From assembly GCF_020400825.1 (NCBI RefSeq), contig NZ_JAINVH010000031.1, positions 1-64,000 on the forward strand: DNA of 64,000 bases, in the 5' to 3' direction. The position numbers and the translations under genes are program-made. The notes under the pieces are model-generated. The model saw only the letters and a list, made by a program, of their open reading frames with translations, was not told the DNA's origin and did no database searches. The stretch is from Streptomyces sp. HPF1205. GTDB taxonomy: Bacteria; Actinomycetota; Actinomycetes; Streptomycetales; Streptomycetaceae. Positions 11,373 to 13,391 of the stretch are shown here, in pieces; the first letter of the stretch is position 1; each line of letters starts with the position of its first letter.

Positions 11373-11400
11373 GGGTTCCAGTCTGCCCGAGGCGCACGCG

Positions 11401-11500
11401 CGAGGCCCCCGGCAGCTTGGGTTCCAGCGGTCCTCGCAGCACCCGCGATCTGTGGGAGTTGCGAGGACCTCTCGAACCCAAGAGGTTGCCGGGGGCCTCG
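11401..11500 (-). terminator. Large imperfect hairpin between fba and the DUF3151 gene
   Basis: The left arm at 11401-11438 and right arm at 11460-11500 are inverted copies over about 38 nt with two short bulges, around a ~21-nt loop. End blocks CGAGGCCCCCGGCA and TGCCGGGGGCCTCG pair exactly, as do GGTCCTCGCA and TGCGAGGACC. On the minus strand it lies after the fba stop and 28 bp before the DUF3151 start. It may be the fba terminator, a structured 5' leader for DUF3151, or both. Confidence 0.6.
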
Positions 11501-11632
11501 TTACGTGCCGGAACGTGACGCGAACCCGCCTTCCGGGCGGCCGGGAGGTGGTGTGCGTGCCACCGCCCGCGCGCGATCACCCGCCTGCGTTCACCCGCCT
11601 GCGTTCAGCCGCGCGCGGTCACCCGCGTGCGT

Positions 11633-12655
11633 TCACTTGCGCTTGTTGCCCGCCGACCGCAGGTTCTCCGCGGCGACCACCACGCGCGCGGCCATGCCCG
11701 CCTCGGCGGCCTTGCCCCACACCCGCGGGTCGTAGGTCTTCTTGTTGCCGACCTCGCCGTCGACCTTCAGCACGCCGTCGTAGTTGCGGAACATGTGGTC
11801 CGCGACCGGCCGGGTGAAGGCGTACTGGAGGTCGGTGTCGATGTTCATCTTGACGACGCCGTTCTCCAGCGCCTCGTTGATCTCGTCCAGGGTCGAGCCG
11901 GAGCCGCCGTGGAAGACGAAGTCGAACGGGCTGGCCTTGCCGTACTTCTGGGCGACGGCGTCCTGCAGCTCCTTCAGGATGCCCGGCCGCAGCACCACGT
12001 TGCCCGGCTTGTAGACACCGTGCACGTTGCCGAAGGAGGCGGCCAGCAGGTAGCGGCCCTGCTCGCCCAGGCCCACCGCCTCGACGGTACGGAAGGCGTC
12101 GTCGACGGTGGTGTAGAGGGAGTCGTTGATCTCGTGCGAGATGCCGTCCTCCTCACCTCCGGTCGGGGTGATCTCCATCTCCAGGATGATCTTGGCCTTG
12201 GCGGCCTCGGCCAGCAGTTCCTTGGCGATAGCGAGGTTGTCGTCCAGGTTCTCCGCCGAGCCGTCCCACATGTGCGACTGGAACAGCGGGTTGCGACCGG
12301 CCTCGACGCGCTCCTGGGAGATCTTCAGCAGCGGCCGGACGTAGCCGTCCAGCTTGTCCTTCGGGCAGTGGTCGGTGTGCAGCGCGACGGTGACCGGGTA
12401 CTTCTCGGCGACGATGTGCGCGAACTCGGCGAGGGCGACCGCGCCCGTCACCATGTCCTTGTTGTACTGACCGCCCAGGAACTCCGCGCCGCCCGTGGAG
12501 ATCTGGATGATGCCGTCGCTCTCCGCCTCGGCGAGGCCGCGCAGCGCGGCATGCAGTGTCTGCGACGAGGTGACATTGATGGCCGGGTAGGCAAACTTGC
12601 CTGCCTTCGCCCGGTCGAGCATCTCGCCGTAGACCTCGGGGGTTGCGATGGGCAT
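11633..12655 (-). CDS. fba: Class II fructose-bisphosphate aldolase
   Basis: A zinc-dependent glycolytic/gluconeogenic aldolase splitting fructose 1,6-bisphosphate to dihydroxyacetone phosphate and glyceraldehyde 3-phosphate. ALHTDHCPKDKLDGY (91-105) contains catalytic Asp95 and zinc ligand His96. ILEMEITPTGGEEDG, SFGNVHGVYKPGN and FHGGSGST supply further metal and phosphate-binding residues. At 340 residues it is the normal length, and GGAGCGG precedes the start. The only following gene on the strand is DUF3151, separated by a large hairpin. Confidence 0.97.
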   Translation of the reverse strand: MPIATPEVYGEMLDRAKAGKFAYPAINVTSSQTLHAALRGLAEAESDGIIQISTGGAEFLGGQYNKDMVTGAVALAEFAHIVAEKYPVTVALHTDHCPKDKLDGYVRPLLKISQERVEAGRNPLFQSHMWDGSAENLDDNLAIAKELLAEAAKAKIILEMEITPTGGEEDGISHEINDSLYTTVDDAFRTVEAVGLGEQGRYLLAASFGNVHGVYKPGNVVLRPGILKELQDAVAQKYGKASPFDFVFHGGSGSTLDEINEALENGVVKMNIDTDLQYAFTRPVADHMFRNYDGVLKVDGEVGNKKTYDPRVWGKAAEAGMAARVVVAAENLRSAGNKRK

Positions 12656-12783
12656 CGTGTCCGCTCCTCATGAGTGTGCGGGTGGTGGTGCTGGCGTGGG
12701 CGACGTCATCGTCGCCCTCATCTTCCCATCCTCGAACGGATACACCACCTCGGCGTACGTCGGACATACCGCGGCCCCCGGAG

Positions 12784-12799
12784 TGTTTCACGTGAAACA
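12784..12799. promoter_or_regulatory. parS: parS centromere site (ParB binding)
   Basis: TGTTTCACGTGAAACA is a perfect 16-bp palindrome. Its inner 14 bp GTTTCACGTGAAAC (12785-12798) is the Streptomyces parS consensus, and the 16-mer fits the Bacillus consensus. It lies in the fba/pyrE spacer. parS sites cluster around oriC, so it anchors the window to the origin half of the chromosome. Confidence 0.88.
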
Positions 12800-12848
12800 T
12801 CCCGAGGGCCGCGTCACCGCAGGTCAGGCCGCATCGGTCGGAGCCGGA

Positions 12849-13391
12849 TCAAGCCAGGCCGAGGTCCGCGAGGGAGTAGACGGACAGGTACGGCAGGCCC
12901 TCCTCGGCGATCCTCGGGCCCGCGCCGCGGTCCACGATCACCGCGACCGCGACGACCTCGCCGCCCGCCTCGCGTACCGCCTCCACCGCGGTCAGCGGCG
13001 AACCGCCGGTGGTCGAGGTGTCCTCGACCACGAGCACCCGGCGCCCCTTGACGTCGGTGCCCTCGATACGGCGCTGCAGCCCATGTGTCTTGGTGGCCTT
13101 GCGGACCACGAAGGCGTCCAGTCGCCGACCGCGCGCGGCGGCCGCGTGCAGCATCGAAGTGGCCACCGGATCGGCGCCGAGCGTCAGCCCGCCCACCGCG
13201 TCGAAGTCCAGGTCGGCGGTGAGGTCGAGCATCGCCTGTCCGGCGAGCGGCGCGGCCTCCCCGTCCAGGGTGATCCGGCGCAGGTCGATGTAGAAGTCGG
13301 CCTCCAGCCCGGACGAGAGGGTCACCTTGCCGTGCACGACGGCCTTGTCCTGGATGTGCCGCAGCAGGGCAGCGCGTACGTCGTCGCTCAT
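12849..13391 (-). CDS. pyrE: Orotate phosphoribosyltransferase
   Basis: A pyrimidine-synthesis enzyme joining orotate and PRPP to form OMP. ATG 13391 gives 180 residues beginning MSDDVRAALL; longer frames upstream are not family-like. The PRPP loop VLVVEDTSTTGGS is at 119-131. The flexible catalytic-loop region VRKATKTHGLQ lies at 97-106 and the substrate-binding SSGLEADFYIDLR at 26-38. It is monocistronic, separated from the rest of the pyr genes, as usual in Streptomyces. The parS palindrome lies 50 bp beyond its stop. Confidence 0.95.
   Translation of the reverse strand: MSDDVRAALLRHIQDKAVVHGKVTLSSGLEADFYIDLRRITLDGEAAPLAGQAMLDLTADLDFDAVGGLTLGADPVATSMLHAAAARGRRLDAFVVRKATKTHGLQRRIEGTDVKGRRVLVVEDTSTTGGSPLTAVEAVREAGGEVVAVAVIVDRGAGPRIAEEGLPYLSVYSLADLGLA

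Follow-up and report, generated by a model that had tools for sequence, protein, structure and literature searches.

A predicted parS site lies within a terminator-like hairpin behind pyrE, away from the main parS cluster

Catalogs of sites for the partition protein ParB (parS sites) usually show them as points close to oriC. What, then, is a parS site doing behind pyrE, at a distance from the others? In the 64,000-nt stretch of DNA that we analyzed (the window), TGTTTCACGTGAAACA at 12784-12799 is a perfect 16-bp parS palindrome. Its 14-bp core (12785-12798) is the sole exact match in the window, and the runner-up has three mismatches. The initial annotation had placed an exact parS between fba and pyrE, and domain matches confirm both neighbors. 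On the minus strand, the order is pyrE, the parS hairpin, and fba:

12849-13391, minus strand: pyrE, orotate phosphoribosyltransferase (Pribosyltran domain, with a modest score yet above the cut-off); the element is at its 3' end
12784-12799, no strand: parS palindrome, predicted ParB loading site (exact match, core kept in relatives)
12770-12813, minus strand: 44-bp inverted repeat whose tip is parS, a terminator-like hairpin 3' of pyrE (repeat search, fold, arm pairing between species, G-U bias)
12656-12740, minus strand: fba leader, with a block around GGGAAGATGAGGGCGACGATGACGTC (by-eye comparison of the pyrE-fba spacers of 12 loci)
11633-12655, minus strand: fba, class II fructose-bisphosphate aldolase (F_bP_aldolase domain), the next gene downstream of the element

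The PyrE and Fba proteins both align to their relatives across their entire lengths. The leader is probably the fba promoter region, and by eye, in those 12 loci, the block around GGGAAGATGAGGGCGACGATGACGTC is similar in parS carriers and non-carriers. No Rfam family reached its gathering score in the window. We propose, with a probability of roughly 0.7, that the palindrome is a genuine parS of the chromosome, belongs to the ParABS system as an outlying site, and is nested in a terminator-like hairpin that belongs to pyrE. Both ParB binding and termination are predictions from sequence.

We compared the site to the other parS sites of its genome (an assembly of 8,406,792 bp in 187 contigs, in which the window is on contig C113). 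Perfect 14-bp cores occur three times in this genome, and the count rises to 18 places if up to two mismatches are allowed. (One of these, C100:191066, is not symmetric.) The initial annotation had proposed a genome-wide search for further copies; these are 17 more places, all on contig C100, within 86 kb (141232-227518) around dnaA (206154) and parB (199362). Sixteen of these 17 are on the parB side of dnaA. The pyrE-linked site is the only one of the 18 that is off the dnaA contig. The genome also encodes a ParB with N, HTH, and C domains. The genome thus has both features expected alongside a chromosomal parS, a gene for a chromosomal ParB and additional copies of the site around dnaA. As a control, we read the core backwards, which gave no exact match in this genome and one match per strand at two mismatches. 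The backwards core had no exact match in any of the 35 genomes of the host genus either, so we rejected a chance match as the explanation for the exact core. We also rejected a mobile element carrying parS: in its own genome, a query of 12600-12950 gave only the self-match, the reverse-complement match of the inverted repeat to itself, and a 30-base piece of fba elsewhere. The initial annotation's prediction that ParB loads here is well supported, as a prediction, by the conservation of the core and by the parB gene.

How far is the site from the origin? We took distances from contigs that hold dnaA and pyrE together. (G084 and G090, whose records start at dnaA, and the second pyrE of G089 were left out. 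We infer that the host genus is Actinacidiphila, and we take genus g14 to be Kitasatospora and g9 to be Streptomyces.) In 16 carriers from the host genus, the pyrE-linked parS is 191-519 kb from dnaA (median 338.5 kb), always on the 3' side of dnaA, opposite the parS cluster. The 12 Streptomyces carriers (159-334 kb) and the single carrier from g12 (228 kb) have it on the same 3' side. In 24 Kitasatospora carriers, it is on the opposite side of dnaA, at 86-139 kb (median 92.5 kb), and for this reason we rejected a conserved fixed distance from oriC. The single carriers from g6, g7, and g11 (173-274 kb) have the site on the Kitasatospora side, with pyrE inverted. Among exact GTTYCACGTGRAAC sites, the pyrE-linked parS is the outermost on its own side in G022, G028, and G024, which are relatives whose chromosome is one main contig; there, it is 227, 265, and 348 kb past the next site. 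It is also the outermost on its side in G097, G147, and G115, but not in G057. (G115 has a farther parS on the other side of dnaA.) Given these distances of 191-519 kb in relatives, outside the main cluster, the site is probably distal here too, and finding it is not enough to put the window beside oriC. The initial annotation's statement that the parS fixes the window near the origin was too strong, and the window's contig does not contain dnaA.

The site is widely conserved behind pyrE. A core with at most two mismatches is present there in 32 of the 34 host-genus genomes that we read (28/30 plus 4/4). (G016, which is 71% complete, had no match for the locus and is outside the 34.) We also drew evenly from the rest of the family, which gave 114 genomes, every one with a pyrE match. 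Of these, 70 have parS behind pyrE: 69, plus G089 via a second pyrE (L254). (G146, whose stretch ends after 129 bases at a contig end, was counted as a miss.) By genus, the site is present in 36/38 genomes of g14, 20/38 of g9, 3/3 of g13, 2/2 each of g7, g8, g11, and g16, and 1/1 each of g6, g12, and g17. It was not found behind pyrE in g2 (0/3), g3 (0/14), g4 (0/1), g5 (0/4), g10 (0/1), or g15 (0/1). So presence is not universal: it is absent from 18 of the 38 Streptomyces genomes and from all 14 of g3. A named collection, made up of the best 80 loci, overlaps in species with the family draw. (L046 was dropped as a duplicate of L031.) Among the matches listed there, parS is upstream of fba in 27 of 62 Streptomyces and Kitasatospora loci and in 0 of 17 loci from other actinobacteria. 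Two more Kitasatospora in this collection, L091 and L103, have parS behind pyrE.

These two loci separate the neighboring genes. In L091, the gap between pyrE and fba is 1255 bp, and parS is 135 bp behind the pyrE stop, with arms of over 20 nt; in L103, the gap is 1132 bp, and parS is 22 bp behind the stop. In the 38 g14 genomes, 36 have parS after the pyrE stop, and 37 of the 38 fetched stretches have no fba start pattern, by a crude test. Across carriers, the core is 6-233 nt behind the stop codon. By its position, parS is tied to the 3' end of pyrE rather than to fba.

On a tree of PyrE and FBA with 91 rows, the presence or absence of the site changes 8 times, versus 28.7 times for shuffled labels. 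(Rows without pyrE or that were too short were left out. L091 and L103 are scored as absences on this tree, since only the 500 bases before fba were inspected, though both have the site behind pyrE.) Thirty of the 37 absences fall in one Streptomyces branch, and parS behind pyrE is absent from the Streptomyces clade that includes S. viridochromogenes (25 rows of the tree). Within the host genus, G023 lacks the parS stretch; its spacer is just 99 bp, and its pyrE is inverted relative to dnaA. The simplest reading of the tree, whose root is not fixed, is loss from ancestral presence.

Two other observations concern these loci. First, in five members of the genus (G008, G010, G014, G025, and G029), PyrE is just 76-84% like that of the host; of these, G008 alone is in the tree, where it is placed outside the genus clade. 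This hints at exchange of the locus or at a loosely drawn genus. Second, in Streptomyces sp. NRRL F-4489 (L054), four perfect parS cores in tandem, with a 24-bp pitch, replace the single armed site behind pyrE, 151-223 bases before fba.

We then turn to what surrounds the palindrome, which is absent from the initial annotation. The parS is the center of the 44-bp inverted repeat, whose 22-nt arms are 86% complementary, with no spacer. As pyrE-sense RNA, a 46-nt piece folds at about -36 kcal/mol, and the 189-nt intergenic region between pyrE and fba folds better than 200 of 200 shuffles (z = -3.96). What one looks for in an intrinsic terminator, a stable stem-loop close behind the coding region with conserved pairing, is found here. 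There is no U-run directly 3' of the stem, so we do not class the element as a canonical intrinsic terminator, and a consensus terminator scan found nothing. (Streptomyces terminators often lack U-runs.) The local fold has z < -3 in 101 of 127 carrier rows versus 4 of the 17 C100 sites; in 18 of the 127 rows, z > -2. The pyrE-fba spacers of non-carriers are shorter than those of carriers (medians of 151 versus 227.5 bp), and their best 64-nt windows fold less stably (medians of -30.8 versus -40.0 kcal/mol). Still, the non-carriers also hold a fair hairpin, so termination would not require the parS element.

Across the 127 carrier rows, the core has just three spellings, GTTTCACGTGAAAC (106 rows), GTTCCACGTGGAAC (16 rows), and a mixed type (5 rows), and the same three account for 16 of the 17 C100 sites. 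The arms vary, yet in 121 distinct arm pairs, an average of 9.45 of 14 positions are paired, versus 5.05 if the 3' arms are dealt anew among the rows (maximum of 5.64 in 1000 rounds). Within the host genus alone, the average is 10.3 versus 7.8 (maximum of 8.8). The 17 C100 sites, as a control, average 5.2 of 14. In G126, G141, G131, G057, and G111, whose arms are unrelated to each other, 16 of 16 positions are paired. (L083 was left out of the arm counts, as its contig end is too close.) A caveat is that 30 of the 121 distinct carriers have weak arms, with at most 6 of 14 positions paired. In L034 and L037, the core is intact and the arms are weak; these two and G047 are almost armless. Conversely, G009 (L023) has arms that are complementary, by eye, around a decayed core. 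Such loci speak for two functions that can be separated. We also noticed, by eye, a third parS-like half-site 3' of the palindrome in L257 and in Kitasatospora rows such as G067, G074, G115, and G125, with which a hairpin between half-sites could form in another register. Some Kitasatospora rows may pair via this third half-site, which the ungapped count would miss; other rows are simply weak.

The mismatches within the stems are also informative: a hairpin that works as pyrE-derived RNA should have G-U mismatches on that strand rather than A-C. In 81 good stems, 56 mismatches are G-U on the pyrE-sense strand and 14 are A-C (which is G-U on the opposite strand). After thinning identical contexts, the ratio is 44:10, while 59% are G-U in the shuffles (p = 4e-4). 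Unthinned, the ratio is 13:6 in group g1, 17:3 in the named collection, and 11:1 in g9 (g14, at 2:1, is uninformative). The shuffles overstate independence, given the kinship among rows and the species that occur in both collections; kinship weakens this p-value but not the direction of the bias in the larger groups. The excess of G-U on the pyrE-sense strand suggests selection on the RNA. Together, the kept core, the arms that are re-paired in other sequences, and the G-U bias point to two layers of selection, and these comparisons indicate that the hairpin is under selection separately from the parS core.

Do other parS sites have such arms? A second parS in a long inverted repeat is at C100:198022 (L130, 3023-3036), about 60 nt behind trxA and next to parB; it stands between trxA and a converging GNAT gene. 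We compared this site in seven genomes in which the end of the gene was recognized. (It was not recognized in the pieces from G115 and G057.) In the host's genome and in G028, G022, and G031, 16-18 of 20 arm positions are paired, with differing sequences, and pairing is poor in G024 (10), G097 (5), and G147 (9). We also observed that a distal parS in G028 (C1:4261374; L265), 165 kb from dnaA, has arms with 19 of 20 positions paired. A parS in a long-armed hairpin is neither unique to pyrE nor a rule.

Another palindromic element in the window, at 11400-11505 behind fba, is about 100 nt long and very stable (z = -8.4 for 117 nt). There is a partial copy on contig C125 of the same genome and six places in G028, and it has matches in only three of the 35 genus genomes, the host's own included. 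It looks like a dispersed REP-like or MITE-like repeat.

We considered three other explanations for the parS hairpin. First, the long inverted repeat might act as DNA, either by extruding a cruciform or as an extended ParB target that aids nucleation far from the cluster. The symmetry of the arms about the ParB palindrome fits this idea, as do the long arms at other parS sites (the trxA site in 4 of 7 genomes and the distal site in G028). But a role as DNA predicts that G-T and A-C mismatches would be near their proportions in the shuffles, and the observed 44:10 follows the pyrE transcript. Also, G009 retains its arms without a usable core, and at G022:3441379, which is also distal, just 7 of 20 arm positions pair. 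We consider this explanation unlikely.

Second, the site might be a parS alone, with arms that are left over or that are complementary by chance in GC-rich DNA. The nearly armless carriers (L034, L037, and G047) and the lack of arms at most C100 sites are what this would predict. Against it, pairing across the 121 distinct carriers is far above that of shuffled partners, with sequences that differ by genus, and most rows fold with z < -3. We think it quite improbable.

Third, a bare terminator whose tip resembles parS by accident would explain a kept hairpin right behind the stop codon, but hardly the rest: the arms vary while the 14-bp core keeps the spellings of the oriC-region sites, a constant tip is not expected of such a terminator, and L054 has four tandem perfect cores at the locus. 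We consider this very improbable and rejected a hairpin without a parS function.

We return to a distal parS nested in the hairpin of pyrE. On the DNA, the 16-bp palindrome would be where ParB-CTP loads, most likely as at the other parS sites, before sliding outwards. The result would be a small second segrosome on the parS-poor arm, 0.2-0.5 Mb from oriC. On the RNA, the pyrE transcript would fold the palindrome and the arms into one long hairpin, which most likely stops or trims the transcript ahead of the fba leader. If so, this one place probably serves both as a segregation mark on the chromosome and as an aid in stopping transcription. Perhaps parS and the hairpin share it because either use is served by a palindrome and because a ParB complex would be little disturbed on intergenic DNA where transcription has ended: the 3' intergenic region would be a free place for the palindrome, and the terminator would keep RNA polymerase off the ParB complex. 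A more elaborate version is a two-way device: bound ParB would alter the frequency with which pyrE transcripts end ahead of fba, and the terminator would in turn protect the ParB complex from RNA polymerase. In sporulating hyphae, chromosome segregation would thereby be coupled to the expression of pyrimidine and glycolytic genes, and the site would belong to a class of these composites in Streptomycetaceae (with the trxA site and the distal site in G028). We regard this version as doubtful.

Either way, one distal parS stays behind one gene across many genera, even where the gene is on the other side of dnaA. At this small locus, one could test how RNA polymerase and ParB complexes coexist on the same DNA, and which role a single parS has on the parS-poor arm of a linear chromosome. 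The apparent losses (G023 and the large Streptomyces clade) and the partial loss in G009, which has arms without the core, are ready comparisons.

How does this site compare to known systems? The open-licence PMC papers that we searched, in texts whose site lists are in supplements outside our scope, describe no parS linked to pyrE or fba and no parS inside a terminator hairpin. The site itself is of a known kind; the composite around it is undescribed in those papers. Like the chromosomal parS sites of Streptomyces, it has the same palindrome, with ParB present and most sites on one side of dnaA. In S. venezuelae, ParB ChIP-seq is reported to have found 16, and later 17, bound parS sites (PMC4852455, PMC12511625), with ParB spreading over 2.5-3 kb at parS (PMC12511625). 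The set in our genome is of similar size (18 places, and 17-21 in four relatives). What sets the pyrE-linked parS apart is its outlying position, across dnaA from the cluster in the host genus, its link to pyrE, and the hairpin around it; the portions of PMC12511625 consulted state no S. venezuelae parS position that can be matched to it. The initial annotation also referred to parS sites in the corresponding area of S. coelicolor. This species is reported to have 23 central parS palindromes and one near an end, and the portions of PMC4852455 consulted do not name the pyrE-fba place among them. Across 20 closed streptomycete chromosomes, 79.86% of parS sites are right of oriC and 20.14% are left; the main text of that study, whose site list is in its supplement, describes no hairpins and no conserved site on the side with few parS (PMC8743542). 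By these figures, the pyrE-linked parS of Streptomyces and Actinacidiphila would be in the 20.14% minority. The Kitasatospora site, at 86-139 kb from dnaA, is on the other side, unlike in those two genera.

Like intrinsic (Rho-independent) terminators, the element is a stable GC-rich stem-loop behind a stop codon and before the leader of the next gene. Unlike them, it has no U-tract, and where they have a free loop, it has a fixed palindrome for protein binding. Finally, at the intergenic parS3 and parS4 sites of Pseudomonas aeruginosa, ParB is reported to repress the neighboring genes, which is a precedent for parS affecting the transcription of its neighbors (PMC7022226). As described there, those sites are upstream of the genes that are repressed, while the pyrE-linked site is in a 3' hairpin.
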